Translations under genes and position numbers: made by a program | NCBI GenBank assembly: GCA_901538445.1 | Contig: LR594584.1 | Span: forward strand, 1,024,655-1,088,654 | Direction of reading: 5' to 3' | Source: Gemmataceae bacterium | GTDB lineage: Bacteria; Planctomycetota; Planctomycetia; Gemmatales; Gemmataceae | DNA length: 64,000 nucleotides | Shown here: positions 18,776 to 36,150 of the stretch, one piece after another | Layout: the number at the start of each line of letters is the position of its first letter | How positions within the stretch are numbered: position 1 is the stretch's first letter | Notes under the pieces: model-generated | Database searches by the model: none | What the model was told of the DNA's origin: nothing | Seen by the model: the letters and a program-made list of their open reading frames with translations, nothing else

Positions 18776-18889
18776 TCCACAGATTACGCAGAAGACACAG
18801 ATTGAAGAACCAATCGAACGCACCCGGCACCGGGTTCTTGGTCTTCATCTGTCTTTGAAATCTGCGTCTTCTGCGTAATCTGTGGATCA
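18774..18889. repeat. ATCCACAGATTACGC-type palindrome, copy 1
   Basis: The left arm GATCCACAGATTACGCAGAA and the right arm (complement, with TCTTCTGCGTAATCTGTGG) enclose an AT-richer loop. Further copies lie at 22865-22987, 26961-27096, 39711-39844 and 58621-58796. The left end overlaps the upstream stop codon. Confidence 0.9.
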
Positions 18890-18909
18890 AACTTCTTCTC
18901 GGGTTGAGC

Positions 18910-19731
18910 ATGTTCCACCGCACCGCCCGCGTCGCCGAACACGTCCGACTCGCCGAGCGCACGTACCGCGTGCGGGTCGAGTGCCCCGAGGTCGCCGGCG
19001 CGATCCGCCCGGGGCAGTTCGTCATGCTCCGGCTCCCCGGCACCACCGACCCGCTGCTCGGCCGGCCGTTCGCCCTCTACGACACGGTCCTCGACGCCTC
19101 GGGGACGCCCGTCGCGCTCGACGTGGTGTACCTCGTCGTCGGCAAGATGACCGGCCGGCTCGCGAGCGTCGAACCCGGGCAGAAGCTCGAGGTGTGGGGG
19201 CCGCTCGGCAAGCCGTTCCTCGACGTCGGCGCGCCCGAGCGGGTCGCGCTCGTCGCCGGCGGCATCGGCCAGACCCCGTTCCTCGCCTACGCCCGCGAAC
19301 TGCTCGGCACGCGGGGATTTGGTGGCGACGCCCCGCGCCCGCGCACCGGGAAGGTGTCGCTGTACTACGGCGTCCGCACCGCGGCGCTCGCGGCCGGCGT
19401 CGAGGACTTCCGGGCCGCGGGGGTCGAGGTGCACCTCGCGAGCGACGACGGCAGCGTCGGCACGAAGGGGTACGTCACGCAGTTGCTCGCGGCGCACGGC
19501 AAGACCGGCCCGCTCGTCGGGTGCGGCCCCGAGCCGATGCTGCACGCGCTCGCGAAGGTCGCCGCGGCGTGGGGCGTCCCGTGCCAGGTGTCGCTGGAGA
19601 CGCCGATGGCGTGCGGCGTCGGCATCTGCTTCAGTTGCGTGGCGAAGGTGACCACGCCCGACGGGTGGGACTACAAGCGCGTGTGCGTCGACGGCCCCGC
19701 GTTCGACGCGGCGCAGTTGGTCTGGGGCTGA
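18910..19731 (+). CDS. pyrK: Dihydroorotate dehydrogenase electron-transfer subunit (PyrK-type)
   Basis: A 273-residue FAD/[2Fe-2S] flavoprotein that passes electrons from dihydroorotate dehydrogenase to NAD+ (established for PyrK). It has a ferredoxin-reductase-like FAD domain ('IRPGQFVMLRLPGTTDPLLGRPFALYD'), an NAD-binding segment ('VALVAGGIGQTPFLAYAREL', 'VGCGPEPMLHALAKVA') and the C-terminal iron-sulfur cysteines Cys235-x4-Cys240-x2-Cys243-x15-Cys259. I use ATG 18910 rather than TTG 18904. No pyrD gene is adjacent, so the partner is encoded elsewhere. A terminator separates it from the nuo operon. Confidence 0.92.
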   Translation: MFHRTARVAEHVRLAERTYRVRVECPEVAGAIRPGQFVMLRLPGTTDPLLGRPFALYDTVLDASGTPVALDVVYLVVGKMTGRLASVEPGQKLEVWGPLGKPFLDVGAPERVALVAGGIGQTPFLAYARELLGTRGFGGDAPRPRTGKVSLYYGVRTAALAAGVEDFRAAGVEVHLASDDGSVGTKGYVTQLLAAHGKTGPLVGCGPEPMLHALAKVAAAWGVPCQVSLETPMACGVGICFSCVAKVTTPDGWDYKRVCVDGPAFDAAQLVWG

Positions 19732-19805
19732 CGCCGACCCAAATCGTCCATTTGCTTGACGGCCCGAACACCTTCCGTACTATCTGGAACAGAGGAACTC
19801 TCTCG

Positions 19806-19833
19806 CCTCGACACCCCGTCGAGGTTGTTTTTT
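19806..19833 (+). terminator. Intrinsic terminator between pyrK and nuoA
   Basis: Stem CCTCGAC (19806-19812) with GTCGAGG (19818-19824), 5-nt loop ACCCC, then TTGTTTTTT. It insulates nuo from pyrK transcription. The T-run doubles as the -35 region of the proposed nuo promoter. Confidence 0.8.
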
Positions 19834-19853
19834 GACCGGGCTTGTGAAATAAT
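19825..19853 (+). promoter_or_regulatory. Candidate nuo operon promoter
   Basis: TTGTTT (19825-19830), a 17-nt spacer, AATAAT (19848-19853). The -10 hexamer lies inside the Rex-type operator, so a bound repressor would block RNA polymerase. Predicted start is near 19860, giving a ~24-nt leader with GGGGAGGGA before the nuoA ATG. Confidence 0.5.
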
Positions 19854-19859
19854 TCACAA
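19842..19859. promoter_or_regulatory. Rex operator (NADH/NAD+-responsive repressor site)
   Basis: TTGTGAAATAATTCACAA is a perfect dyad of the form TTGTGAA-N4-TTCACAA, which is the established consensus for the redox repressor Rex. It sits 24 nt upstream of the nuoA start, overlapping the proposed -10. Rex leaves DNA when NADH rises, which fits control of an NADH:quinone oxidoreductase. The rex gene is not in this window. Confidence 0.82.
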
Positions 19860-19883
19860 ACACCGTGCGGGGAGGGACGACGA

Positions 19884-20324
19884 ATGACCGTGCCCCCGGT
19901 CCAGACACCGGCCGGCCTGGAGCCCGCCTTCAGCCTGGAGGCGTACTACCCGGTGCTCTGCTACGGCGTGGTCGCGGTCCTGTTCGCCCTCACCACGGTC
20001 GCGGCCACCCACCTGTTCCCGTTCAAGCCGCGGAAGCTCACGAAGGTCAAGCAGATGGCCTACGAGTCCGGCATGGACCCGGTCGGGTCGGCCCGGATGC
20101 AGTTCGACATCAAGTTCTACCTGATCGCGATCCTGTTCCTCGTGTTCGACGTCGAACTCCTGTTCCTGTACCCGTGGGCGGTGATCGCCTACGGCGAGGG
20201 CGGCGACCAACTGTGGCGCACGGTGTTCGGCCGGGTCGCGTTCCTCGAGATCCTGGTGTTCATGGCGACGTTCGTGATCGCCTACGTCTACTCATGGAAG
20301 CGGGGGGTGTTCAAGTGGCGATAA
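19884..20324 (+). CDS. nuoA: NADH-quinone oxidoreductase subunit A
   Basis: A 146-residue membrane subunit of complex I. Three transmembrane helices are visible (about residues 22-45, 74-98 and 112-136). The conserved loop '[20 protein letters not shown]' and '[23 protein letters not shown]' are diagnostic. NuoA helps form the membrane interface near the quinone site. First gene of the operon, with a strong GGGGAGGGA ribosome site. Its 3' end overlaps the nuoB start. Confidence 0.97.
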
Positions 20325-20914
20325 CCGGCCTGATGCCCGACTTCCTGGTCACCAAGATCGACGCGCTCGCGAGCATGCTCCGCAAGCACAGCCTGTGGCC
20401 CATGCCGTTCGCGACGGCGTGCTGCGGCATCGAGCTGATGGCGACCGCCAGCAGCCGGTACGACATCGCCCGGTTCGGGGCCGAGGCCATGCGGTTCTCG
20501 CCCCGGCAGTGCGACCTGATGATCGTCGCCGGCCGGGTGGTGATGAAGATGGTCCCGGTGATGCAGCGGATCTGGCTCCAGATGCCCGAGCCCAAGTGGT
20601 GCATCAGCATGGGCGCGTGCGCGTCGAGCGGCGGCGTGTTCGACACCTACGCGGTCGTGCAGGGCATCGACCGGTTCATCCCGGTGGACGTGTACGTCCC
20701 CGGGTGCCCGCCGCGGCCCGAGCAGTTGATCCGGGCGGTGCTCGACATCCAGGAGAAGGTGCAGCGGACCGGGACCATCGACGCCCGCGAGTTCGCCGCC
20801 CGCGACACCTACGAGGGCCCGACCCCGCTCGCGACCGAGCTGGCCCCCGAGCAGGCCATCGTCGCCCCGGGCGACTTCCGCACCGCCACCCGCCTGCGGG
20901 TGCCGCTGAACTGA
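20315..20914 (+). CDS. nuoB: NADH-quinone oxidoreductase subunit B
   Basis: A 199-residue peripheral subunit carrying cluster N2, the electron donor to quinone. Cluster ligands are visible: the tandem Cys36-Cys37 (ATACCGIE), Cys102 (MGACASSGG) and Cys131 ([10 protein letters not shown]). I chose GTG 20315 because GGGGGG lies just upstream. An in-frame ATG at 20294 would add seven residues. It overlaps nuoA by 10 nt, consistent with translational coupling. The C-terminal ~35 residues extend past the core fold. Confidence 0.96.
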
Positions 20915-20915
20915 C

Positions 20916-20995
20916 GCGACCCGAGCCGTGCCGGTCACGGCACGGCTCGCGTCTCGCCTGAACCCGTGCCGTGACCGGCACGGCTCGCCCGGAGA
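20916..20995. repeat. Inverted repeats between nuoB and nuoC
   Basis: GAGCCGTGCC/GGCACGGCTC hairpin (20923-20948) plus a further complementary copy (about 20965-20990). It can fold in several ways and may tune mRNA stability within the operon. Confidence 0.75.
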
Positions 20996-21000
20996 AGGTC

Positions 21001-21507
21001 ATGCCGACGTACCTCGACACGCTGAACGCCAGGTTCCCCGGCGCGTTCACGACCTCGACGTTCCGCGACAACCACCGCGTCGTGCTGTCGGCCGAGAAGG
21101 CGTACGCGACGGTGTTCCCGCTGCTCAAGTGCCTGAAGACCGAGTGCGGGTTCGACATGCTCGCGGAACTCGGCGGCATCGACTACCTGAACTACCCGAA
21201 CGCCACCGACCGGTACGGCGTCGTGTACGGGCTCGTGAACACGGCCACGGCCGAGCGGGTGTTCGTCAAGGCGTTCGCCAACGACCCGGACCCCGAGCTG
21301 CCGTCGGTGTACGACCTGTGGAAGGCCGCCGACTGGATGGAGCGCGAGGTGTTCGACATGTACGGGGTGAGGTTCGTCGGCCACCCCGACCTGCGCCGCA
21401 TCCTGATGCCGCACGAGTTCACCGCGCACCCGCTGCGGAAGGACTACCCGCTCCGCGGCTACGGCGAGCGGCACAACTTCCGCCCGGTGACCCGGGCCGA
21501 GGGCTGA
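21001..21507 (+). CDS. nuoC: NADH-quinone oxidoreductase subunit C
   Basis: A 168-residue 30-kDa-type peripheral subunit. The C-terminal signature 'WMEREVFDMYGVRFVGHPDLRRILMP' and 'HPLRKDYPLRGYGERHNF' is diagnostic. It is a separate gene here, not fused to nuoD as in some enterobacteria. ATG 21001 follows GGAGAAGG. It has no cofactor and packs against NuoD and NuoI near the quinone cavity. Confidence 0.96.
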   Translation: MPTYLDTLNARFPGAFTTSTFRDNHRVVLSAEKAYATVFPLLKCLKTECGFDMLAELGGIDYLNYPNATDRYGVVYGLVNTATAERVFVKAFANDPDPELPSVYDLWKAADWMEREVFDMYGVRFVGHPDLRRILMPHEFTAHPLRKDYPLRGYGERHNFRPVTRAEG

Positions 21508-21515
21508 GGTCAGGA

Positions 21516-21595
21516 ATTACAAAGGTAAAAAGTAAAAGGTAAAGACAGACAGAACGCTCGCTCTTCGTTTTTATTCTTTACCTTTTACATTTTGC
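21516..21595. repeat. AT-rich palindrome between nuoC and nuoD
   Basis: Left arm contains AAAGTAAAAGGTAAAG, right arm its complement (CTTTACCTTTTACATTTT). It ends 13 nt before the nuoD ATG and is strikingly AT-rich compared with the flanking genes. Confidence 0.8.
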
Positions 21596-21608
21596 ACTCG
21601 GTACCGAC

Positions 21609-22838
21609 ATGCCACTTGAAACCGCTACTCCCGTGGAAGACGTCGCCGGTGCGGACCGGGAGTTCCTCTACACCCTAAACTTCGGCCCGCAGCACCCGGC
21701 CACGCACACCACCCTGCGGCTCATCCTCACGCTCGAGGGCGAGACGATCGTCAAGGCCGTGCCGGACATCGGCTACCTGCACAGCGGCTTCGAGAAACTG
21801 GGCGAAGACCTCGACTTCAACCAGTACGTCACGATCGTCGACCGGATGAACTACATCAGCCCGTTCGCGAACGAGTGCGCGTGGTTCACCGCCGTCGAGA
21901 AGCTCCTGAACATCGACGTGACTCCGCGGTGCAAGTACCTCCGCGTGATCCTCGCCGAGCTGGCCCGGATCAGCGACCACCTGCTGTGCGTCGGTGCGGC
22001 CGCCCTCGACCTCGGCGCGCTCACCGCGTTCCTGTACGCCTTCAACCAGCGGGAGAAGGTGTACGACATCATGGAGTTCGCGTCGGGCCAGCGGTTCCAC
22101 CCGAGCTTCTGCCGGGTCGGCGGGCTGATGGCCGACGTCTCCGACGACGTGGTCGCCAAGGTCCGCGACTTCGTGAAGACGTTCCCGAAGGCCCACGCCG
22201 ACCTCGTGCGGCTCCTGAACCGCAACCGCATCTTCGTGGACCGCACCAAGGGGATCGGCGTCATCTCCAAGGAGGACGCGATCAACACCGGGTGCTCCGG
22301 GCCGGTGGCGCGAGCCGCGGGCGTGGTCCGCGACCTGCGGAAGGACGAGCCGTACCTCGCGTACAAGGAACTCGCCGGGTCGTTCAAGGTGGTGTGCGGC
22401 AAGGGCGGCGACTGCTACAACCGCTACCTCGTCCGCATGGGCGAGATGGCCGAGTCGCTGAACATCATCGCCGCGGCGGTGGAGAACATCCCCGGCGGCC
22501 CGGTGAACGTGAACCTCGAGGACAAGCTCACGATCCCGGACAAGAACGCGACGTACCGGAGCATCGAGGGGCTGATCCAGCACTTCGAGCTGTTCATGTG
22601 GAACCGCCGGTGGGAGACGCCGGTCGAGGAGGTGTACGGGGCGAACGAGACGGCCAACGGCGAACTCGGGTACTACCTGGTCGCCGACGGCGGGGGCCGC
22701 CCGTTCCGCGCCCGCACGCGGCCGCCGTCCTTCATCCACTTCGCGGTGTTCCCGCAGATGATCGAAGGGCACCAGATTTCGGACGTGCCCGCGGTCCTCG
22801 GGAGCCTGAACATCATCGCGGCCGAACTGGACCGGTGA
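21609..22838 (+). CDS. nuoD: NADH-quinone oxidoreductase subunit D
   Basis: A 409-residue 49-kDa-type subunit that forms the quinone-binding cavity with NuoB. Signatures: 'LNFGPQHPATHTTLRLILTLEG' at the N-terminus (with the conserved HPxxH loop), 'DIGYLHSGFEKLGE', 'RISDHLLCVGAAALDLGA', and the C-terminal 'PPSFIHFAVFPQMIEGHQISD'. Length matches the family. No nickel ligands, as expected for complex I rather than its hydrogenase relatives. The ATG closely follows the AT-rich palindrome. Confidence 0.97.
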   Translation: MPLETATPVEDVAGADREFLYTLNFGPQHPATHTTLRLILTLEGETIVKAVPDIGYLHSGFEKLGEDLDFNQYVTIVDRMNYISPFANECAWFTAVEKLLNIDVTPRCKYLRVILAELARISDHLLCVGAAALDLGALTAFLYAFNQREKVYDIMEFASGQRFHPSFCRVGGLMADVSDDVVAKVRDFVKTFPKAHADLVRLLNRNRIFVDRTKGIGVISKEDAINTGCSGPVARAAGVVRDLRKDEPYLAYKELAGSFKVVCGKGGDCYNRYLVRMGEMAESLNIIAAAVENIPGGPVNVNLEDKLTIPDKNATYRSIEGLIQHFELFMWNRRWETPVEEVYGANETANGELGYYLVADGGGRPFRARTRPPSFIHFAVFPQMIEGHQISDVPAVLGSLNIIAAELDR

Positions 22839-22864
22839 GCAGAGGTGGGGGCAGAGAGAAGCAG

Positions 22865-22987
22865 AGTTATCCGCAGATTACACAGATGGACACAGATTGG
22901 AAAGCAGAGAACAGCGACCAGCGAGTTGTTGATTGAACTCTGATTTCTGTCTTAAAATCTGCGTTCATCTGCGAAATCTGTGGATAA
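22865..22987. repeat. ATCCACAGATTACGC-type palindrome, copy 2
   Basis: Arms GTTATCCGCAGATTACACAG (left) and the complement ending in CTGTGGATAA (right). The right arm contains TGTGGATAA (22979-22987), identical to the reverse complement of a DnaA box. It ends 16 nt before nuoE. Confidence 0.88.
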
Positions 22988-23003
22988 ATCTCCGGAGTTT
23001 GTG

Positions 23004-23486
23004 ATGCCGGCGCTCAGCGAAGACATGAAGAACCGGATCCGGGCGTTCCTCCCGAAGTACCCCCGGAAGCAGGCGGCGACGCTGCCGGCGCTGCACCTCG
23101 TCCACGACGAGCTGCGGACCGTGTCGAACGAGGCCATCGCCGAGATCGCCGAGATCCTCGAACTGCACCCGTCCGAGGTGCAGGACACGATGACCTTCTA
23201 CGCCTTCTACAAGGGCGAGGGCGAGAAGCTCGGCAAGACCCGGCTGTGGGTGTGCCGCGGGCTCGCGTGCATGCTCCGCGGCGCGTACGAGCTGATCGAG
23301 CACTGCGAGCACAAGCTCGGCGTGAAGTGCGGGCACACGACCCCCGACGGCGCGATCACACTCGAATTTGCCGAGTGCATCGGCGCGTGCGACGGCGCCC
23401 CGGCGTGCCTCAAGGAAGACGTCCACGTCATGAACGTGACGCCCGAGCGGGCCGACGAACTGATCACGCAGTTGAAGCTCAAATGA
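23004..23486 (+). CDS. nuoE: NADH-quinone oxidoreductase subunit E
   Basis: A 160-residue 24-kDa-type subunit carrying the [2Fe-2S] cluster N1a. Cluster ligands are in place: Cys84-x4-Cys89 (VCRGLACML) and Cys125-x3-Cys129 (ECIGACDGAP). The N-terminal helical part ('RIRAFLPKYPRKQAATLPAL') is typical. ATG 23004 follows CCGGAG; a GTG just upstream is possible. Its stop overlaps the start of the inserted small gene (ATGA). Confidence 0.96.
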   Translation: MPALSEDMKNRIRAFLPKYPRKQAATLPALHLVHDELRTVSNEAIAEIAEILELHPSEVQDTMTFYAFYKGEGEKLGKTRLWVCRGLACMLRGAYELIEHCEHKLGVKCGHTTPDGAITLEFAECIGACDGAPACLKEDVHVMNVTPERADELITQLKLK

Positions 23487-23803
23487 CGCCGCCTGACGAA
23501 CCGGGAGTTTGGGTGTTCAACGGGAGCGGTGGCCAGTTCCCCTCGGGGGTGTTCTCGACAGTCGAGCAGGCGGAAAGGTGGATCGCAACGCACAGGTTGA
23601 GCGGGATGCTGACCTGGTACCCCCTGGATGTCGGTGTCTACGAGTGGACCATCGAGAAGAAGTGTTTCATTCCTCGAAAAGATTACCAGAAGACGCCTGA
23701 TTTCATCCAGACGTTTAGCTCGGCCCACACCGGTCACTACCACTACGAGAATGGCGGACCGGCTGGTGCCGGGCTTGCGGACCAACAACAGGCGGCGGAC
23801 TGA
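23483..23803 (+). CDS. Small unknown protein inserted in the nuo operon
   Basis: A 106-residue protein: 'VWVFNGSGGQFPSGVFSTVE', 'ERWIATHRLSGMLTWYPLDVGVYEW' and 'FIQTFSSAHTGHYHYENG'. This resembles a family of small uncharacterised bacterial proteins (I think DUF7710, not certain) that is not part of complex I. It overlaps nuoE by ATGA and ends 5 nt before nuoF, so it is translated within the operon. Base use differs from the neighbours: 47% GC over 23641-23700 by count, far below the nuo genes. Probably acquired; a role in complex I is unproven. Confidence 0.75.
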   Translation: MTPPDEPGVWVFNGSGGQFPSGVFSTVEQAERWIATHRLSGMLTWYPLDVGVYEWTIEKKCFIPRKDYQKTPDFIQTFSSAHTGHYHYENGGPAGAGLADQQQAAD

Positions 23804-23808
23804 TAACG

Positions 23809-25176
<1,368 letters not shown>

Positions 25177-25223
25177 ACGATTACCAGGCCCGCCGTCCCG
25201 GGCGGACCCACGGGTTTCTCAAC

Positions 25224-26939
25224 ATGCCGACGGTCTACGTCAACGACAAGCCGGTCGAGATCGGCAACCGGAAGCTGAACTGCGTCCAGGCCGCGGAACT
25301 GGCCGGGCAGTTCATCCCGCACTACTGCTGGCACGAGGCGCTCAGCGTCGTCGCCAGTTGCCGCATGTGCCTCGTCGAGGTCGGCGACGTCAACCCGAAG
25401 GACGGCGTGCTGACCATGCAGCCGAAGGTCGTGCCGGGGTGCCAGACCCCGGTCCGCGACGGCACCCACATCGTCACCGGCGAGTACGACAAGCGCGACA
25501 CGTCGTTCCCGGCCCGGCCGTACGACGCCAACTACCTCAAGGGCGGCGCGCCGGGCACCCGGGCCAAGAAGTCGCAGGCCGACACGCTCGAAGGCCTGCT
25601 CATCAACCACCCGCTCGACTGCCCGGTGTGCGACAAGGCCGGCGAGTGCAAGCTCCAGGACTTCTCGTTCAAGTACGGCCGGTCCGAGTCGCGGATGGTG
25701 GACGTCAAGAACACCCCGCCGAACAAGCCGCACCTGTCGAGCAAGATCACGCTGTTCACCGACCGCTGCATCATGTGTACGCGGTGCGTGCGGTTCACCC
25801 GCGAGATCAGCGGCACCGCCGAACTCATGGTCAACGGCCGCGGGCACCACGAGGAGATCGACACGTTCCCCGGCCGCCCGCTCGAGAACAAGCTCGCCGG
25901 CAACGTCGTGGACCTGTGCCCCGTCGGCGCGCTCGGCAGCAAGGACTTCCTCTACAAGCAGCGCGTCTGGTATCTCAAGGAGAGCAACGGCGTCTGCTCG
26001 CGGTGCAGCACCGGGTGCAGCACCTTCGTGGACACGAACAAGGACATCGTCTACCGCCTGCGCGCCCGGCCGAACCCCGAGGCCCAGGGGCACTTCATGT
26101 GCGACGAGGGCCGGTACGGCTACCACTTCGCCAACTCCGCCGAGCGCATCCAGCGCCCGCAGGTGAAGGCCGACGGCGTGCTGAAGCCGGCCGCTTGGAA
26201 CGTCGTCACCCCGCAGCTCAAGAAGACGTTCACCGACGCCGCGAGCGCCAGCGCGAAGACGGTCGTGGGCGTGCTCTCGCCGTTCCTCACGGTCGAGGAG
26301 GCGTTCCTCTACGCGACGTACTTCAAGAGCCTGTCGGCCGACGTGCGGCTCGCGATCGGGCCGGTGCCGGTCGTCGGCCACGACGACACGTACCCCAAGG
26401 ACGTGAAGGGCAACCCGGTCGAGCCGGTGAAGTTCGTGATCCGCGCCGAGAAGTGCCCGAACCGCCGCGGCGTCGAGGCCGTCATCAAGCACTTCCAGGG
26501 CAGCGTGCCGGCGTTCGCCGACGTCGCCACCGAGAGCCTCACGGCCCTCTGGTTCGTCGGCGGCTACCCGGACAAGGATCAGCTCGCCGCGTCGCTGCCC
26601 GCCAACTGGAAGGCTCCGGCCCTGGTCGTCGCGCAGGACCTGTTCGCCGGCCCGATCACGGCGGCCGCGTCGTTCGTCCTGCCGGCCACGAGCAACTTCG
26701 AGAAGGCCGGCACGTTCGTGAACCACGCCGGCCTCGCGCAGACGTTCGACCGGGCCGTGCGGCCGCCGACCGAGGTGCGGACCGAGCTTCAGGTCGCGTT
26801 CGACCTGCTCGGCCGTAAGGGGCTGGTGCAGGCCGCCGCGATCCGTGCCGAACTGGCCGCGGCGATCCCGGCCTTCGCGCACCTGGCGACCAAGGAACTG
26901 CCGGCCAACGGCGTGCGGTTCGAGCTGGCAACGGTTTGA
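25224..26939 (+). CDS. nuoG: NADH-quinone oxidoreductase subunit G (compact form)
   Basis: A 571-residue iron-sulfur subunit. N-terminal [2Fe-2S] ferredoxin domain ('HYCWHEALSVVASCRMCLVE'), His-ligated cluster region ('NHPLDCPVCDKAGECKLQDF'), then [4Fe-4S] ligands 'CIMCTRCVRFTREISGT' and 'VVDLCPVGAL'. 'SRCSTGCSTFVDTNKDIV' with a later Cys ('FMCDEGRYG') matches the N7-type cluster. The molybdopterin-oxidoreductase-like C-terminal domain is shorter than in the ~900-residue E. coli protein. ATG 25224 lies 47 nt after nuoF. Confidence 0.95.
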   Translation: MPTVYVNDKPVEIGNRKLNCVQAAELAGQFIPHYCWHEALSVVASCRMCLVEVGDVNPKDGVLTMQPKVVPGCQTPVRDGTHIVTGEYDKRDTSFPARPYDANYLKGGAPGTRAKKSQADTLEGLLINHPLDCPVCDKAGECKLQDFSFKYGRSESRMVDVKNTPPNKPHLSSKITLFTDRCIMCTRCVRFTREISGTAELMVNGRGHHEEIDTFPGRPLENKLAGNVVDLCPVGALGSKDFLYKQRVWYLKESNGVCSRCSTGCSTFVDTNKDIVYRLRARPNPEAQGHFMCDEGRYGYHFANSAERIQRPQVKADGVLKPAAWNVVTPQLKKTFTDAASASAKTVVGVLSPFLTVEEAFLYATYFKSLSADVRLAIGPVPVVGHDDTYPKDVKGNPVEPVKFVIRAEKCPNRRGVEAVIKHFQGSVPAFADVATESLTALWFVGGYPDKDQLAASLPANWKAPALVVAQDLFAGPITAAASFVLPATSNFEKAGTFVNHAGLAQTFDRAVRPPTEVRTELQVAFDLLGRKGLVQAAAIRAELAAAIPAFAHLATKELPANGVRFELATV

Positions 26940-26960
26940 GTGACGATCTAATACAAAGCA

Positions 26961-27096
26961 GTTTTATCCACAAATTACACAGAGGACACAGAATAGAAGG
27001 CAGATCAATACAGAGTGACCGGGAGTCGAGATGATCGGCTTTTCGCTCTGTCTTGTGTCTTAAAATCTGTGTTCTCTGCGTAATCTGCGGATAAAT
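26961..27096. repeat. ATCCACAGATTACGC-type palindrome, copy 3
   Basis: Left arm TTTATCCACAAATTACACAG (with TTATCCACA, a DnaA-box match, at 26964-26972), right arm complementary (GTAATCTGCGGATAAAT). It ends about 27 nt before the nuoH ATG. Confidence 0.9.
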
Positions 27097-27122
27097 ACTC
27101 TGCTCTGCCGAGAAGAGAGCCG

Positions 27123-28382
27123 ATGCCCCCATTCAACCCGGTCTACACCGCGATCGTGATCGTCGCCCTCGTCGGCGCGGTCCTCGGGCTGTGCGCGTTC
27201 CTCACGCTCACCGAGCGGAAGCTCTCGGCGTGGATGCAGGACCGCGTCGGCCCCAACCGCGTCGGCCCCGGCGGCCTGCTCCAGCCGATGGCCGACGGCG
27301 GGAAGTTCTTCCTCAAGGAAGAAGTGATCCCGGACCACGTCGACAAGCTCTTCTACGTCCTCGCGCCGGCCGCCGCCGTGGGCACCGCCCTTCTGGCGCT
27401 CGCGGTCGTGCCGTTCGGGTCCACCGTCGCCCCGCCCGACCCGGTCGCGGTCACCGCGCCGGCGGCCGGCGGCCCGACCCCCGTGGAGACATTCGAGCGG
27501 CAGCAGGCCGAGTACCGGTCGCACTTCTCGTTCGTCCTTAACCCGGGGCTCGACATCGGCGTGCTCTATCTGTTCGCGGTCGGCTCGCTCGCCGTCTACG
27601 GCGGGGTGCTCGCCGGGTGGAGCGCCAACAACAAGTACTCGCTCCTCGGGGCGTTGCGGGCGAGCGCCCAGATCATCAGCTACGAGATCCCGCTCGGCAT
27701 GTCGGTCCTCGGCGTGTTCCTGATCGTCGGGTCGCTGAACCCCGAGAGGATCATCGACTGGCAGACCGCGGGCGGCCCGTACTGGCTGCTCCTGTTCCAG
27801 CCGCTCGCCCTATTCCTGTTCATGACCAGCAGCTACGCCGAGGCCAGCCGGCTCCCGTTCGACCTCCCCGAGGCCGAGCAGGAACTCGTCGGCGGCTACC
27901 ACACCGAGTACTCGGCCCTCAAGCTCGGGCTCATGCTCCTCTCGGAGTACGTCCACCTCATCGCGGGCAGCTTCATGCTGGCCGTGCTGTTCCTGGGCGG
28001 GTGGAGCCTGTTCGGGCTGGAGTCCGTGTCGGACGACCCGATCGTCACCGCCGTGCTGCGGCTCCTGATCCTGTGCGGGAAGATGTTCGCGCTGTGCATC
28101 TTCGCCCAGTTGGTCCGGTGGACGATCCCCCGGTTCCGGTTCGACCAGCTCATGAACATCGCGTGGAAGGTGCTGCTGCCGCTCGCGCTGCTGAACCTGA
28201 TCTGCGTCATGGTCGTGAAGCAGATGGGCTGGCCGCTCGTCGTGCTGACCGGCACCTCGGCGGCGCTGGTGGTCGGGGCCGGGCTGTTCTCGGTCTGGAC
28301 CGCGGGCTCGGTCACGAACCCGAAGCGCAAGGTCGTCAAGCTGCCCGCCGGCGTCCCCGCGGGCGTCACGTACGCGAGCTAA
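27123..28382 (+). CDS. nuoH: NADH-quinone oxidoreductase subunit H
   Basis: A 419-residue membrane subunit joining the peripheral and membrane arms and lining the quinone channel. Diagnostic motifs: 'ERKLSAWMQDRVGPNRVGPGGLLQP', 'RASAQIISYEIPLGMSVLGV', 'EASRLPFDLPEAEQELVGGYHTEYS' and 'PRFRFDQLMNIAWKVLLPLAL'. Eight or nine membrane helices are visible. Compared with standard NuoH there is an extra polar loop (about residues 103-130) after the second helix. Confidence 0.97.
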   Translation: MPPFNPVYTAIVIVALVGAVLGLCAFLTLTERKLSAWMQDRVGPNRVGPGGLLQPMADGGKFFLKEEVIPDHVDKLFYVLAPAAAVGTALLALAVVPFGSTVAPPDPVAVTAPAAGGPTPVETFERQQAEYRSHFSFVLNPGLDIGVLYLFAVGSLAVYGGVLAGWSANNKYSLLGALRASAQIISYEIPLGMSVLGVFLIVGSLNPERIIDWQTAGGPYWLLLFQPLALFLFMTSSYAEASRLPFDLPEAEQELVGGYHTEYSALKLGLMLLSEYVHLIAGSFMLAVLFLGGWSLFGLESVSDDPIVTAVLRLLILCGKMFALCIFAQLVRWTIPRFRFDQLMNIAWKVLLPLALLNLICVMVVKQMGWPLVVLTGTSAALVVGAGLFSVWTAGSVTNPKRKVVKLPAGVPAGVTYAS

Positions 28383-28391
28383 CTCAAGAAC

Positions 28392-28420
28392 GAAGCCCCC
28401 GCACCGCGCTGCGGGGGCTT
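28392..28420. repeat. Hairpin between nuoH and nuoI
   Basis: AAGCCCCCGCA paired with TGCGGGGGCTT, no T-run. Probably an mRNA hairpin rather than a terminator, since the operon continues. Confidence 0.65.
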
Positions 28421-28432
28421 GTGGAGCCCCTT

Positions 28433-28999
28433 ATGCCGATCCCCGAGTCCGACGTGAAGTGGGTCGAGGAAGCCCGGCTGGGCTTCTGGGAGCAGCTCTA
28501 CGTCCCGGCGATGATCGACGGGCTGAAGACCACCATCGGCCACATCTTCAGCCCGCAGGTGAAGACCGAGCAGTACCCGGAGCAGGAGCCGAAGATGCCC
28601 GCGAACTACCGCGGCGTCCACCGGCTCAACCGGGACGAGAAGGACCGCGTCAAGTGCGTCGCGTGCTACATGTGCGCGACCGCGTGCCCGGCCCACTGCA
28701 TCGACATCGTCGCCGCCCCGGCCCCCGCCGAGTGGGCGGACCGCGAGAAGTACCCCGAGACGTTCGTCATCGACGAGCTGCGGTGCATCTACTGCGGGAT
28801 GTGCGAGGAGGCGTGCCCCGTGGACGCCATCGAACTCACGACGCTCTACGACCTCACCGGCCTGAGCCGCGAGCAGATGGTGTTCGACAAGGAGAAGCTC
28901 CTGAGCGTGTTCGACCAGACCACAAAGGCCGGCACCGACCCAGTGCGGACGCGGGCCGGCCGCCTGAGCGTGGCGTCCGAAGCGCCGCCGGGCCAGTGA
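28433..28999 (+). CDS. nuoI: NADH-quinone oxidoreductase subunit I
   Basis: A 188-residue 8Fe ferredoxin-like subunit with clusters N6a and N6b. Both Cys-x2-Cys-x2-Cys-x3-Cys-Pro motifs are intact: 'CVACYMCATACP' and 'CIYCGMCEEACP'. The N-terminal amphipathic part ('YVPAMIDGLKTTIGHIFSPQ') docks on the membrane arm. C-terminal ~40 residues are polar and variable. ATG 28433, close behind the GC hairpin. Confidence 0.97.
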   Translation: MPIPESDVKWVEEARLGFWEQLYVPAMIDGLKTTIGHIFSPQVKTEQYPEQEPKMPANYRGVHRLNRDEKDRVKCVACYMCATACPAHCIDIVAAPAPAEWADREKYPETFVIDELRCIYCGMCEEACPVDAIELTTLYDLTGLSREQMVFDKEKLLSVFDQTTKAGTDPVRTRAGRLSVASEAPPGQ

Positions 29000-29080
29000 A
29001 CCATCGTTTACCCGCGACGCGACGCGGAGCGCGTCATATACCATTCGCGTCCCGCTTGTGAAAAACTGCACGAGCCCTGA

Positions 29081-30244
29081 ATGAACCCATCCTCGCTGAC
29101 ACCGACGCAGCTCGCCGCGGGGCAGATCGCCCTCGCCGCGGTCCTCGCCGTCGCCGGGTTCGCACTCCTCGTGCCCCGGCCGCGGGGCCGGCGGGTGGCC
29201 GCGGGGGTCGCGAGCCTCCTCGCCGCCGTCGCGGTGTTCGCGGCGTGGGTCTACAAGACCTTCGGCGACCCGATGCCGGACCTCATCGGCACCGCGCTGT
29301 TCTACCTGTTCTCCGGCTCGGCGCTCCTGTTCGGCACGGTCCTGGTGACGCAGGCCAACCCGGGCCGCGGGGCCATCGCCTTCGCGTTCGTGATCCTGAG
29401 CACCTGCGGGCTGTTCCTGCTGCTCGCCGCCCCGTTCCTGATGGCCGCAACGGTCATCATCTACGCCGGGGCGATCATCGTCACGTTCCTGTTCGTGCTG
29501 ATGCTGTCGCACGCCGGCGGGCCGTCCGACGAGAACAACCGCAGCCGCGAGCCGCTCCTCGGCTCGCTCGCCGGGTTCGCGTTCACCGGCCTGATCCTGT
29601 TCACACTCTACGTATCCGACGCCGGCCTGAAGCCGGTCGCGGCGGGCGAGGCCCCGAAGCCGGCCCAGCGGCTCCCGGCCCAGGTGCTGACGCCCGATGA
29701 GCGGGCCGCGCTGCTTTCCGCGGTCGAGAAGCTCGACGCGGTCGAGACCCAACTGCCCGGCGACGGCCCGGTCGCCGACCGCGGTGCCGTCCGCGACCAC
29801 TTCGACGCGGTCCGCGACCAGATCGGGGCCGTCGTGGGGTCGGACGCCCGGAGCCGTGACGGCTCGCTCCCCGCCCGGCTCGAAAAGGTGCCGACGCAGC
29901 CCGGCGGGAAGGTGGCGCCGCTCCGGGGCGACCAGCAGGCGGCACGGGTGCTGAAGCGGGCCGCCGAGGTGCGCCGGTTGAACGAGACCGCCCACGACGC
30001 GGTGTCGAGCCACCTGCTCGACGGCAAGCCGGACCGCCCGACCGTGAAGGCCCAGCTCCACAAGCTCCGCGACGAGGTGGTGCTGCTCGCCGGGTCCGGC
30101 GACCTGCCGGCGCGGAACGTCTCGAACCTCGGGTACCTGCTCTACACCGACCACCTGCTCGCGGTCGAACTGGCCGGCACGCTGCTGCTGGTCGCCACCA
30201 TCGGGGCCATCGCCATCGCACAGCGCAAGGGGGCCGCGGCGTGA
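29081..30244 (+). CDS. nuoJ: NADH-quinone oxidoreductase subunit J with large hydrophilic insertion
   Basis: 387 residues, about twice the usual NuoJ length. The core is recognisable: 'LFYLFSGSALLFGTVLVTQANPG', 'APFLMAATVIIYAGAIIVTFLFVLML' and a last helix 'AVELAGTLLLVATIGAIAIA'. Between the fourth and last helices (about residues 180-345) lies a ~165-residue charged, Ala/Leu/Arg-rich, probably helical insertion absent from canonical NuoJ. An extra hydrophobic pair is also present at the N-terminus. The frame is unbroken. Its stop overlaps the nuoK GTG (GTGA). Confidence 0.93.
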   Translation: MNPSSLTPTQLAAGQIALAAVLAVAGFALLVPRPRGRRVAAGVASLLAAVAVFAAWVYKTFGDPMPDLIGTALFYLFSGSALLFGTVLVTQANPGRGAIAFAFVILSTCGLFLLLAAPFLMAATVIIYAGAIIVTFLFVLMLSHAGGPSDENNRSREPLLGSLAGFAFTGLILFTLYVSDAGLKPVAAGEAPKPAQRLPAQVLTPDERAALLSAVEKLDAVETQLPGDGPVADRGAVRDHFDAVRDQIGAVVGSDARSRDGSLPARLEKVPTQPGGKVAPLRGDQQAARVLKRAAEVRRLNETAHDAVSSHLLDGKPDRPTVKAQLHKLRDEVVLLAGSGDLPARNVSNLGYLLYTDHLLAVELAGTLLLVATIGAIAIAQRKGAAA

Positions 30245-30658
30245 TTACCTTGTGGCACTACCTCGCGGTCGCCGCCGCGCTGTTCGGGATCGGCCTCGTC
30301 GGGTTCCTGACCCGGCGGAACATGATCACCATGTTCCTCTGCGCCGAGATGATGTTCCAGGGCGTGGCGATCAACTTCGCCGCGTTCGGCCGGTACCACG
30401 GCAACCTCCAGGGCCAGGCGTTCGTGCTGTTCATCATCGCCGTCGCCGCGTGCGAGGCGGGGATCGCACTGGCCCTGTTCCTGACCCTGTACCGCCGCGG
30501 CAGGTCGCTCGATGCGTCCGACTGGCAGGCGCTCCGCGAGGCCGGGGTGCCCCCGGTCATCGACACCGAGCCGCTCCCGACCGAGGTGACCGTGCCCGAC
30601 GACCTCCTCGCCCCCGCCGGGGTGCGGCCCAAGACCGCTCCGACCGAGGAGCCCGCGA

Positions 30659-30666
<8 letters not shown>
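30241..30666 (+). CDS. nuoK: NADH-quinone oxidoreductase subunit K
   Basis: A 141-residue membrane subunit. Three helices and the conserved Glu-bearing motifs are clear: 'RRNMITMFLCAEMMFQGVAINF' and 'FVLFIIAVAACEAGIALALFL', including the two buried glutamates used in proton transfer. The C-terminal ~45 residues ('PPVIDTEPLPTEVTVPDDLL') are an extra polar tail. GTG start overlapping the nuoJ stop; 8-nt overlap with nuoL. Confidence 0.96.
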
Positions 30667-32626
<1,960 letters not shown>

Positions 32627-32672
32627 CTTCAGCCCTGCCGTCGCGACGGCAGGGGTTGGGCTAAGGACCCGC

Positions 32673-34472
32673 ATGGACAAGATCTACGAGATCGTCGCCG
32701 CCCCGCGGACCGGCCGCACCCTGGTGCTGCTGGTGGTGCTGTTCCCGTTCCTCGCCGCGCTGTTCGTCAGCCTGTTCGGGAAGCGGGGCCGCCGGGTCGC
32801 GCTGCTGCTCGCGCTCGTTCACCTCGGGCTCGCGGTGAGCGTCGCCGCCATCGCGTCGATGCACCTCGGCACCCGCGACGAGTTGTCCGCGGGCCGCGGC
32901 ACCGACCACGCCAAGTTCGAGCCGGCGATGGTCCCGGGCGCGCGGGTCGGGGACGACGGCCGCACCGCGTGGACCCTCATGAGCCTGACCGCGACGCCGC
33001 CGAGCGCCGGCCGGGCCGGGCCGTTCGTGCAGTTCTTCGTCGGCGTGGACGGCCTGAACCTGTGGCTCGTCGCGCTCACGAGCTTCATGGTGGTCCCCGC
33101 GATCCTCGTGTCGTGGGAGTCGGTCACCGAGCGGCGCGGCGCGTTCTACGCCTGGCTGTTCGTGCTGCAGGGGGCCGCGGTCGGCGCGTTCCTGTCGTTC
33201 GACGTGATCCTCTTCTACGTGTTCTTCGAGCTGACGCTGGTGCCGGCGTTCTTCCTGATCGGCCGGTGGGGCCCGGGCTCGGCCCGCCGCGACGCGGCCC
33301 GCAAGTTCTTCCTGTACACCCTCGCCGGGAGCCTGCTCACCCTGGTCGGCGTCGTCGGCGTGGTCGTGACCAACCCGGACCCGACGACCGGCCAGATCAC
33401 GTTCTCGCTCCCGGACCTGATGGCCAACGTGCAGCACTGGCTCAACGCCGCGCAGGCCGAGGCGGCCGCCGGCAAGCCCGAGAAGCTCGCCGCCCTGCAC
33501 CAGACGCAGCTCTGGCTGTTCGTCGCGCTGATGGCCGGGTTCATGGTGAAGACCCCGATCTTCCCGTTCCACACCTGGCTCCCCAGCGCGTACGGCGAGG
33601 CCCCGATCGGCGTCACCGTGCTGCTGTCGGCGGTGCTCGCGAAGCTCGGCACGTTCGGCATCCTGCGGTTCGTGCTGACGCTGACGCCCGACGCCGCGGT
33701 CGCCTACGGGCTGCCGGTCGTCGGCACGCTCGCGGCGTTCGGCATCGTGTACGCGGCCCTCTGTGCCTACGCGCAGAAGGACATGAAGCAGATGGCGGCG
33801 TACAGCTCGGTGTCGCACCTCGGGTTCGTCGTGCTGGCGGTCTTCGCGTTCAACACCGAGGGCGTGGCCGGGTCGGTGCTGCACATGGTCAACCACGGGC
33901 TCAGCACCGGGGCCGTGTTCGCCCTGCTCGCGTTCCTCGCCGACCGGTACCGCACCACGAGCATGACGCAGTACGGCGGGCTCATGGGCCGGTTCCCGAA
34001 CTTCGCGGTGCTGGCGTTCGTGCTGTGCCTCGCGAGCGTCGGCCTGCCGGGGCTGAACAACTTCGTCAGCGAGATGCTGATGCTCGGCGGCCTGTTCCGG
34101 GCCGACGCGCCGAAGAACCACCACTACGCGCTCGCCGGGATCGCCGCGTTCAGCATCTTCCTCAGCTCGTGGTACATCATGACGATGCTCCAGCGGGTGT
34201 TCTTCAGCCCGCCGAAGGAGCCGCCGGCCGACGCGCCCGGCGCGGCCCCGCCCGGCGACGTGAACAGCCGCGAGTTGATCGCGTTCGGCTCGCTGGCGGC
34301 GCTGTGCCTCGTGCTCGGCGTGTACCCGCAGCCGGTGCTCGACACCATGAGGGCCGACGTCCGCATCGTGACCCGCATCGGCGACGACGCCCGCGTCCGG
34401 GTGTACGGCGAGCCGAAGCCGACCAAGGTGCTCGTGGCGGCCGAGCCGAACAACGGCAAGCAGGACCGGTAG
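32673..34472 (+). CDS. nuoM: NADH-quinone oxidoreductase subunit M
   Basis: A 599-residue antiporter-like subunit. Core motifs: 'FFELTLVPAFFLIGRWG' (key Glu), 'GFMVKTPIFPFHTWLPSAYGEAP', 'YAQKDMKQMAAYSSVSHLGF' and 'MVNHGLSTGAVFALLAFLAD'. It is ~90 residues longer than usual because of two polar loops, near residues 70-110 and 230-275. The 46-nt gap from nuoL contains a small CCTGCCGTCGC/GCGACGGCAGG hairpin. Confidence 0.97.
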   Translation: MDKIYEIVAAPRTGRTLVLLVVLFPFLAALFVSLFGKRGRRVALLLALVHLGLAVSVAAIASMHLGTRDELSAGRGTDHAKFEPAMVPGARVGDDGRTAWTLMSLTATPPSAGRAGPFVQFFVGVDGLNLWLVALTSFMVVPAILVSWESVTERRGAFYAWLFVLQGAAVGAFLSFDVILFYVFFELTLVPAFFLIGRWGPGSARRDAARKFFLYTLAGSLLTLVGVVGVVVTNPDPTTGQITFSLPDLMANVQHWLNAAQAEAAAGKPEKLAALHQTQLWLFVALMAGFMVKTPIFPFHTWLPSAYGEAPIGVTVLLSAVLAKLGTFGILRFVLTLTPDAAVAYGLPVVGTLAAFGIVYAALCAYAQKDMKQMAAYSSVSHLGFVVLAVFAFNTEGVAGSVLHMVNHGLSTGAVFALLAFLADRYRTTSMTQYGGLMGRFPNFAVLAFVLCLASVGLPGLNNFVSEMLMLGGLFRADAPKNHHYALAGIAAFSIFLSSWYIMTMLQRVFFSPPKEPPADAPGAAPPGDVNSRELIAFGSLAALCLVLGVYPQPVLDTMRADVRIVTRIGDDARVRVYGEPKPTKVLVAAEPNNGKQDR

Positions 34473-34539
34473 GTAACAGTTTTGGCGAGCCGGGAGCGTA
34501 AGCGACCGGAGGTTCAGTCGCTCCAGGGGCCAACCAACC

Positions 34540-36150
34540 GTGAATCCGCTGTCCGACCCGCAGTTGCAGCACACGTTCACCGGCGTCTTCCGGCTCGTCG
34601 CACCGGAGATCGCTTTGGTCGGCACGGCGTGCGTCGTGTTCCTGTTCGGCAGCGCCTTCAACCGCCGCTGGATCTGGTTCACGGTGTCGCTCCTCGGCGT
34701 GATCGCGGCGATGGTCCTTGCGGGGACCGTGCGGACCCCGATGCCCGAGGTGCTCACCGCCGCGCCGATCGTCCCCGACGCGGCCGCCAACTTCCTGCGC
34801 TGGGTCGCCCTCATCAGCGCCGCGGTGCTGCTGTTCCTGACGTGGCCCGAGGCGACCCGCGGGCACGCCGCCGAGTACTACGGCTCGCTGCTCGTCGCGG
34901 TCGCCGGCGTGTCGCTCACCGGCCGGGCGAACGACCTCGTGAGCCTGTTCCTCGCGCTCGAACTCATCAGCATCCCGACGTACATCCTGCTGTACCTCCC
35001 GTCCCGCTCCCGGCCCAGCCAGGAGGCGGCCGCGAAGTACTTCCTGCTCAGCGTGCTGTCGTCGGCCGTGCTGCTGTTCGGGTTCAGCTACCTCTACGGG
35101 CTGACCGGCAGCACCAACCTCTCGGTCATCACCGACGCGCTGACGAAGGCGAACGCCGAGGCGCTGTCGCCGATGGCGCTGGTCGGCATCGTGCTGGTGG
35201 TCGCGGGCATCGGGTTCAAGATCACCGCGGTGCCGTTCCACTTCTACGCCCCGGACGTGTACGAGGGCGGGCCGGCCGGCGTGGTCGCGATGCTCGCCGT
35301 GCTCCCGAAGGTCGCCGGGTTCGCCGCACTCGCCCGGCTCCTCGGCCTCGTCGGGGCCGACGCGCGGCACCTGCCGTTCGACACCGCCACCCAGCTCCCG
35401 CTGCTGCTCTGGATCCTCGCGATCCTCACGATGACCGTCGGGAACGTGCTGGCGCTGCTCCAGGACAACGTCCGCCGCATGCTCGCGTACTCCGGCGTGG
35501 CGCACGGCGGGTACATGCTCATGGGCGTGGTCGTGGCGTGCTCGCTGCCCGAGGCGGCCGGCACGGTCATCAAGCTCGAGGGCGCTCCGAAGGTGATCGG
35601 CCCGACCGTCGGCGGGATCGACGCGCTGCTCGTGTACCTCGTCGCCTACGCGCTCATGACGTTCGGCGCGTTCGCCGTGATCCTGTACCTCAGCACGCCG
35701 GCCCGCGAGGTCGGCGCGATCGACGACCTCGCCGGGCTCGGCAAGACGCACCCGATCTCCGCCGGGGCGATGACGGTGTTCCTGCTGAGCCTGATCGGGC
35801 TCCCGCTCACGGCCGGGTTCGCCGGCAAGCTCCTGCTGTTCATCGGCACGTTCACCGCCCCGGCCGACACCGCCGCGATGCGGAACCTGTACCGGCTGCT
35901 CGCGGTCGTCGCGGCGGTGAACTCCGCGGTCGGCGCGTACTACTACCTCCGCGTCGTCGGGGTCATGTACCTCCGCACCGCCCTCACCCCGATCGTCGGC
36001 TCGCGGGCCGTGCCGACGCTCATGGCGTCGGTCGCCCTCGCCGGTGCGACGGTGTTCTTCGGCATCTACCCGCAGCCGCTCCTCACCGCGGCCCGCCGGG
36101 CCGCCCCGGTCCCCGAGTTGCCCGTCCCCGCGGTCGCCGACGCGAAGTAG
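34540..36150 (+). CDS. nuoN: NADH-quinone oxidoreductase subunit N
   Basis: A 536-residue antiporter-like subunit, last gene of the operon. Motifs: 'LFLALELISIPTYILLYL', 'AAAKYFLLSVLSSAVLLFGFSYLYG', 'GIGFKITAVPFHFYAPDVYEGGPA' and 'LQDNVRRMLAYSGVAHGGYML'. GTG start. The 67-nt gap from nuoM holds a short inverted repeat. I saw no clear intrinsic terminator after the stop codon; the next gene has its own -10-like box at 36195-36200. Confidence 0.97.
   Translation: MNPLSDPQLQHTFTGVFRLVAPEIALVGTACVVFLFGSAFNRRWIWFTVSLLGVIAAMVLAGTVRTPMPEVLTAAPIVPDAAANFLRWVALISAAVLLFLTWPEATRGHAAEYYGSLLVAVAGVSLTGRANDLVSLFLALELISIPTYILLYLPSRSRPSQEAAAKYFLLSVLSSAVLLFGFSYLYGLTGSTNLSVITDALTKANAEALSPMALVGIVLVVAGIGFKITAVPFHFYAPDVYEGGPAGVVAMLAVLPKVAGFAALARLLGLVGADARHLPFDTATQLPLLLWILAILTMTVGNVLALLQDNVRRMLAYSGVAHGGYMLMGVVVACSLPEAAGTVIKLEGAPKVIGPTVGGIDALLVYLVAYALMTFGAFAVILYLSTPAREVGAIDDLAGLGKTHPISAGAMTVFLLSLIGLPLTAGFAGKLLLFIGTFTAPADTAAMRNLYRLLAVVAAVNSAVGAYYYLRVVGVMYLRTALTPIVGSRAVPTLMASVALAGATVFFGIYPQPLLTAARRAAPVPELPVPAVADAK

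Follow-up and report, generated by a model that had tools for sequence, protein, structure and literature searches.

Both the control of nuo by Rex and the stopping of RNA polymerase by DNA-bound regulators are already known. The Rex regulons of Streptomyces include nuo, cyd, atp and rex-hem, as described for S. avermitilis (PMC5355995), and the Rex site at nuo overlaps the promoter there. In the same report, the Rex site of wblE lies downstream of the transcription start, from +108 to +135, and it was proposed that Rex stops the progress of polymerase at this place. Roadblocks of this kind are also described for other repressors. In E. coli, LacI roadblocks at 30 or 60 bp from the start let more polymerase pass than those at 102 bp with weaker promoters, and the best fit for short spacings was more LacI dislodgement, not less termination (PMC4132739). 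An iron-dependent attenuator role has been ascribed to YtgR, which acts at trpRBA of Chlamydia (PMC6504234).

Here we analysed a stretch of 64,000 nucleotides from a Gemmataceae bacterium (the window), in which the leader of a complex I (nuo) operon carries a Rex-type dyad shortly behind a predicted intrinsic terminator. The arrangement suggests that Rex acts by tripping a stop signal in the leader rather than by blocking the promoter.

A perfect Rex-type dyad before the nuo operon

The genes and the leader elements of the region are as follows.

18904..19731, + strand, PyrK-like dihydroorotate dehydrogenase electron transfer subunit, the upstream gene (NCBIfam, 140 bits, below the equivalog cut-offs)
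19756..19783, + strand, probable nuo promoter, -35 TTGACG at 19756-19761, 16 nt, -10 TACTAT at 19778-19783 (sigma-70-like scan, conserved in relatives; predicted start about 19790)
19806..19824, + strand, predicted leader terminator hairpin CCTCGAC-ACCCC-GTCGAGG (fold, and position conserved in relatives)
19825..19833, + strand, T-tract (U-tract in RNA), beginning 17 nt before the dyad
19842..19859, no strand, putative Rex operator, perfect dyad TTGTGAAATAATTCACAA (exact consensus match and co-occurrence with rex)
19868..19875, + strand, probable Shine-Dalgarno region, G-rich, GGGGAGGG (read from the sequence)
19884..20324, + strand, nuoA (NCBIfam NuoA families, below their equivalog cut-offs)
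20315..36150, + strand, nuoB-nuoN, all on one strand (Pfam and NCBIfam matches)
Starts, + strand: nuoB 20315, nuoC 20971, nuoD 21609, nuoE 22980, nuoF 23809, nuoH 27123, nuoJ 29081, nuoK 30241, nuoL 30659, nuoM 32673, nuoN 34540
Ends, + strand: nuoG 26939 and nuoI 28999 (both starts uncertain)

Among these, nuoI, nuoL, nuoM and nuoN were assigned by gene order within the ferredoxin and Proton_antipo matches. The named NuoA records most similar to the nuoA product carry the labels Planctomycetota, Planctomycetaceae, Gemmata and Gemmataceae.

Sequence reading and a pattern scan both returned the exact 18-bp TTGTGAA-N4-TTCACAA at 19842-19859 that the first-pass annotation had described, and nuoA starts 24 nt after it, as was also stated there. 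It is the only exact match in the window, which holds four dyad matches with up to 3 mismatches compared with 0.29 expected in shuffles. The whole 7.86-Mb genome contains 2 exact dyads, the second being C2:2101725, and the backwards control pattern has no exact match in it. It turned out that 5 dyad matches with up to 2 mismatches occur in the genome compared with 4 for the control, so only near-exact dyads stand out, and the 2- and 3-mismatch dyads elsewhere in the window or genome were discarded as sites, being not above background. Lying as an exact consensus upstream of the gene it would regulate, the dyad at 19842-19859 is almost certainly a Rex operator, as judged from its sequence and its distribution.

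The dyad in the leaders of many relatives is often longer (ACT-TTGTGA-N6-TCACAA-AGT), and in some genera it reads TCGTGA-N6-TCACGA, with both halves changed in step. Three further TYGTGA-N6-TCACRA matches were found in the genome (C3:1568365, C3:329681 and C3:4189778; none for the control pattern), the first of which is followed by TTACAAT.

Two checks had been proposed earlier, a search for a rex gene and one for further dyad copies. The genome has one rex gene, which matches the NCBIfam Rex model NF003995 with 224 bits (cut-off 126). Its product contains the winged-helix N-terminal domain PF06971 and the Rossmann domain PF02629, both over the curated cut-offs, as members of the Rex repressor family do, and matches solved Rex structures over nearly the full length (E about 1e-40). 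The other exact dyad, C2:2101725, has a one-mismatch copy 53 bp away (pair at C2:2101672-2101742), and these tandem dyads stand before a gene for an ActA-like multiheme cytochrome, which belongs to a cluster for alternative complex III and a cbb3-type oxidase. Genes for a ferredoxin-domain protein (in the ActB position), NrfD-ActD, cytochrome c, COX1 and FixO follow the ActA-like gene on the same strand. One ORF in this cluster carries both NrfD (ActC-like) and ActD domains. Just upstream of the tandem dyads lies an ORF of 41 codons, probably coding for one membrane helix, and most of the actA loci searched have a similar sequence close to actA.

Order of promoter, terminator and operator

The promoter scan found TTGACG-16-TACTAT as the only sigma-70-like promoter in 18800-20400. 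Downstream of it, 19800-19833 folds at -13.2 kcal/mol (z -4.57), and by sequence and fold a GC-rich hairpin is followed at once by a T-tract, as in an intrinsic terminator. Because the promoter lies upstream of hairpin and T-tract, the order is promoter, terminator, operator and nuoA, in which the operator is downstream of the predicted transcription start. The order of promoter, hairpin and operator is repeated in many leaders of the taxonomic order. For the 72 terminator-bearing leaders, the promoter score 5' of the hairpin passed the threshold in 48 compared with 0 of 72 shuffled sequences, while 3' of the hairpin (the stretch that begins with the T-tract and ends 60 nt past the dyad start) it did so in 7 compared with 2 of 72 shuffled ones (one mononucleotide round of shuffling). 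With strong promoters 5' of the hairpin and near-background scores 3' of it, the terminator is most likely part of the nuo leader and stands between promoter and operator.

This differs from the first-pass annotation, in which a TTGTTT-17-AATAAT promoter overlapped the dyad and the terminator insulated pyrK. The two strings are indeed present, 17 nt apart (19825-19830 and 19848-19853), but they are not conserved as a promoter, the -35 sits in the T-tract of the terminator itself, and we rejected them as the nuo promoter. As for the terminator, the hairpin with its T-tract is there, but its role as an insulator is not supported. The likely nuo promoter is 5' of it, and its distance to the dyad varies little. 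Moreover, of the 29 terminator-bearing loci with longer upstream sequence, 14 have their strongest upstream ORF on the opposite strand (crude ORF calling; the 29 include the weak T-tracts of G040 and G047). The corresponding number for the 38 loci with longer upstream sequence is 21, by the same crude calling.

If transcription starts at about 19790, the leader before the hairpin is about 16 nt long. No Rfam family matches the window leader, and an Rfam riboswitch was rejected for this leader. One minimum-free-energy fold of 19790-19883, from this single sequence, pairs the U-tract with downstream sequence.

Two variants of the leader were observed in relatives. G004 and genus g34 (G075-G079) have a TACAAT- or TAGAAT-like -10 element 6-8 nt 3' of the dyad, possibly part of a second promoter that Rex would cover. 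In four genomes of family f7 (G482, G487, G489 and G496), a larger fold of about 60 nt may stand before the T-tract in place of the simple hairpin.

Spacing between terminator and operator

The nuoA leaders that we compared were read within the class Planctomycetia, and 93 of them bear the dyad and 52 do not. G025 belongs to neither number, its contig ending close to the dyad, and G023 (4 mismatches, a hairpin, no rex match) is dyad-bearing in the spacing and promoter counts and dyad-less in the rex counts. Of the 93 leaders, 74 have a strong T-tract no more than 32 nt from the dyad, compared with 20.6 in shuffles, and 65 have both a strong T-tract and a hairpin near the dyad, compared with 2.7 (20 dinucleotide-type rounds). 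Within 150 nt, hairpin and T-tract occur in 63 of the 93 dyad-bearing leaders but in only 3 of the 52 dyad-less ones; when 260 nt were scanned with looser settings, terminator-like hairpins appeared in G084, G061 and G050, 3 of the 22 leaders of the order that lack the dyad.

The distance between the two elements is nearly fixed. In the 65 leaders, the T-tract starts on average 16.6 nt before the dyad (SD 1.3), and exactly 17 nt before it in 42, compared with an SD of 22 for the distance from the dyad to the NuoA match. Most of the strong T-tracts (72 of 74) start 13-19 nt before the dyad, and the remaining two, in G394 and G570, start at 10 and 27 nt. The sequences vary much more: at the position of the 3' arm, the 72 leaders have 35 distinct 7-mers, with GTCGAGG occurring 26 times, and the 8 nt just before the dyad make 66 distinct stretches. 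Therefore, the distance is kept better than the sequence.

Two states of the leader can be seen. The dyad is 38-95 nt behind the -10 element in leaders with the T-tract, and 2-18 nt behind it in 16 of the 21 leaders without that T-tract, and both states are found inside the genera g1, g21 and g25. By eye, three leaders without a strong T-tract (G040, G047 and G528) have a hairpin and a weaker T-run, and G394 and G497 fit neither state.

Proposed mechanism and alternative explanations

Our proposal starts from the rex gene, the operator sequence, their co-occurrence, the order of promoter, hairpin and operator, and the near-fixed spacing. RNA polymerase would start at TTGACG-16-TACTAT, make about 35 nt ending in the GC-rich hairpin and then enter the U-tract of 9 nt; the operator is separated from the hairpin by 17 nt and from the end of the U-tract by 8 nt. 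At low NADH, Rex-NAD+ on the operator would block the polymerase inside the U-tract or at its edge, and the completed hairpin would release it, giving an RNA of about 44 nt by roadblock-coupled termination. When NADH rises, Rex would leave, polymerase would pass the U-tract more often and complex I would be made. Whether dislodgement of the LacI type or termination dominates, a terminator located where polymerase stalls would clear it fast. We lean towards this reading, in which Rex on the operator and the leader terminator together switch nuo transcription by NADH, as somewhat probable. Several points count against it: a polymerase arrested by Rex may not get as far as transcribing the U-tract, a hairpin of -13 kcal/mol could by itself terminate efficiently, a second promoter covered by Rex is possible in G004 and g34, some leaders fit neither state, and dyad and rex do not coincide in every genome. 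Footprints of Rex at full sites cover 23-29 nt in S. avermitilis (PMC5355995) and would therefore reach a few nt past the 18-nt dyad.

The alternative that survives best takes Rex as a plain roadblock and the leader terminator as an independent attenuator, constitutive or answering another signal. LacI placed 30-102 bp downstream of the start blocks polymerase in E. coli (PMC4132739), which agrees with such a roadblock. An independent terminator is harder to reconcile with the leaders of the relatives, in which it goes with a displaced operator, is rare among dyad-less leaders and keeps its distance to the operator, and the predicted leader of about 16 nt before the terminator would be too short for an aptamer. 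We regard this explanation as unlikely.

Classical steric repression, the model of the first-pass annotation, has the terminator insulating nuo and Rex blocking a promoter overlapping the dyad or lying immediately behind it. The Rex footprint at nuoA1 of S. avermitilis, reported at -42 to -16 (PMC5355995), is a precedent for it, and the -10-like elements behind the dyad in G004 and g34 as well as the TTGTTT-17-AATAAT string of the window would suit it. The distribution of promoter scores on the two sides of the hairpin and the opposite-strand ORFs upstream of about half of the terminator-bearing loci argue against it, as does the nearly fixed distance between terminator and operator, which insulation does not need; we consider it quite improbable. 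It is very doubtful that promoter and terminator make a small RNA with a role of its own, with the Rex site serving the read-through alone: the predicted transcript of about 44 nt does end in a U-tract, but the hairpin sequence varies among leaders, unlike that of a base-pairing RNA. Compared with these explanations, roadblock-coupled termination by Rex remains our preferred reading.

Co-occurrence of the dyad with rex

Because TGTGA-N6-TCACA is also the Crp consensus and the genome encodes two Crp-like proteins with a RET motif in the recognition helix (L007 and L008), we asked which gene tracks the dyad. The rex gene is present in 59 of the 90 genomes of the order, of which 86 have a readable nuoA leader (G005, G006, G058 and G071, without a proper NuoA, are outside the counts). 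A dyad in these counts has up to 3 mismatches and lies within 165 nt, a level that the backwards pattern reaches in 4 of 146 leaders; rex-negative means no PF06971 match. In the order, the dyad is found in 56 of 57 rex-positive leaders compared with 7 of 29 rex-negative ones (p 2e-13), and at the level of genera in 23 of 23 compared with 4 of 18. In the other orders of the class (60 leaders; G494, G517, G511 and genomes with partial or weaker matches are outside this set), the numbers are 30 of 31 and 1 of 29. The p-values overstate independence since the sequences share ancestry; the association has the same direction in separate orders.

The exceptions are few, comprising the dyad in 7 rex-negative leaders of the order and 1 of the class, and two rex-positive genomes (G014 and G418) without it. 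The eight rex-negative genomes with a dyad (G017, G040, G002, G054, G027, G059, G043 and G490) are many-contig assemblies, 83-94% complete, and rex may be missing from the assembly.

We give hardly any credence to a Crp/Fnr-family protein as the reader of the dyad, and rejected Crp in this role: besides the shared consensus and the two Crp-like proteins, PF13545 has a match of some kind in 71 of the 90 genomes (43 over the cut-off), but matches to the L008 protein above 200 bits occur in 5 of 90 (in some genomes the candidates were scored in part), 10 dyad-bearing leaders come from genomes without a PF13545 match (7 with rex; 3, G002, G054 and G059, without a rex match), and the dyad is tracked by rex, not by a Crp-type protein. 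Thus the earlier claim that a Rex operator controls the nuo operon gained support from the rex gene, from the co-occurrence of dyad and rex, and from the other exact copy before the alternative complex III/cbb3 cluster. Predicted control of complex I by Rex is supported on these genomic grounds.

Other Rex-type dyads in relatives

Of the 31 non-nuo loci examined, 13 have an exact dyad near actA, and in relatives exact dyads also lie before Rieske, NDH-2 (ndh2) and atpI-like genes. These dyads at respiratory genes point to a putative respiratory Rex regulon. The promoter comparison at non-nuo sites covers those with an assigned target gene, 5 of 24 sites being left out for lack of one. Measured at 12 actA sites, the distance from the -10 element to the dyad behind it is 3-12 nt, and none of these sites has a strong T-tract. 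The distance is 3-5 nt at 4 Rieske or Rieske-like sites, two of which have a T score of 4, starting 22 nt before the dyad. By the same promoter score, there is no convincing adjacent promoter at the actA site of the window's genome (G000), the two atpI sites and the ndh2 site.

Leaving nuoA and actA aside, there are 16 dyad loci of relatives, and in 7 of these, including those of rex-negative G060 and G082, the dyad lies inside a called ORF; therefore some exact dyads are due to chance. A phylum-wide scan for the T-tract with the dyad gave matches in 44 of 392 genomes. For the 30 loci that were fetched, NuoA is beside the match in five, namely G000, G009 and G063 of the order, and G463 and G410 of other orders of the class.

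Comparison with known systems

In leader attenuators and riboswitch terminators, an intrinsic terminator stands between the promoter and the first gene, as in the window. The window leader differs from them in having no Rfam aptamer match and no room for a leader peptide, and the proposed switch is a repressor bound to DNA. We judge it evenly balanced whether this is a composite switch used in several orders of Planctomycetia, in which a redox-sensing DNA-bound repressor is the effector of an intrinsic terminator and stops polymerase in the U-tract, hairpin and operator being about 17 nt apart, as a protein-on-DNA attenuation of the complex I operon. If true, a repressor need not keep polymerase off the promoter and can decide the outcome at a built-in terminator, and the near-fixed spacing across several orders would be a testable rule for the position of polymerase on meeting a bound protein. 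The predicted control of the respiratory chain by NADH and Rex would also extend to planctomycetes, covering complex I, alternative complex III and the oxidase, and in some relatives the Rieske, NDH-2 and ATP synthase genes. A narrow search of the open-licence literature found no report of a repressor operator tied to a leader terminator at a fixed spacing, and no study of Rex in planctomycetes.

The S. avermitilis system is alike in having a Rex-type repressor, the same operator consensus, and nuo and atpI among the targets, but its Rex site at nuoA1 covers part of the promoter, and the description of that site mentions no leader terminator, which is different from the nuo leader of the window (PMC5355995). 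The consensus of Staphylococcus aureus Rex, TTGTGAAW4TTCACAA, fits the window's dyad letter for letter, yet the sites described there lie in or a few bp from promoters and the targets named are mostly fermentation, nitrate or nitrite genes, unlike here (PMC2883068). LacI in E. coli (PMC4132739) and YtgR at trpRBA (PMC6504234) share with our proposal a DNA-bound repressor that stops elongating polymerase downstream of the start; as these systems are described, no operator is paired with an intrinsic terminator at fixed spacing, in contrast to the window. At the LacI roadblock the stalled polymerase is removed mainly by Mfd (PMC4132739), whereas in the window this task would fall to the intrinsic terminator.
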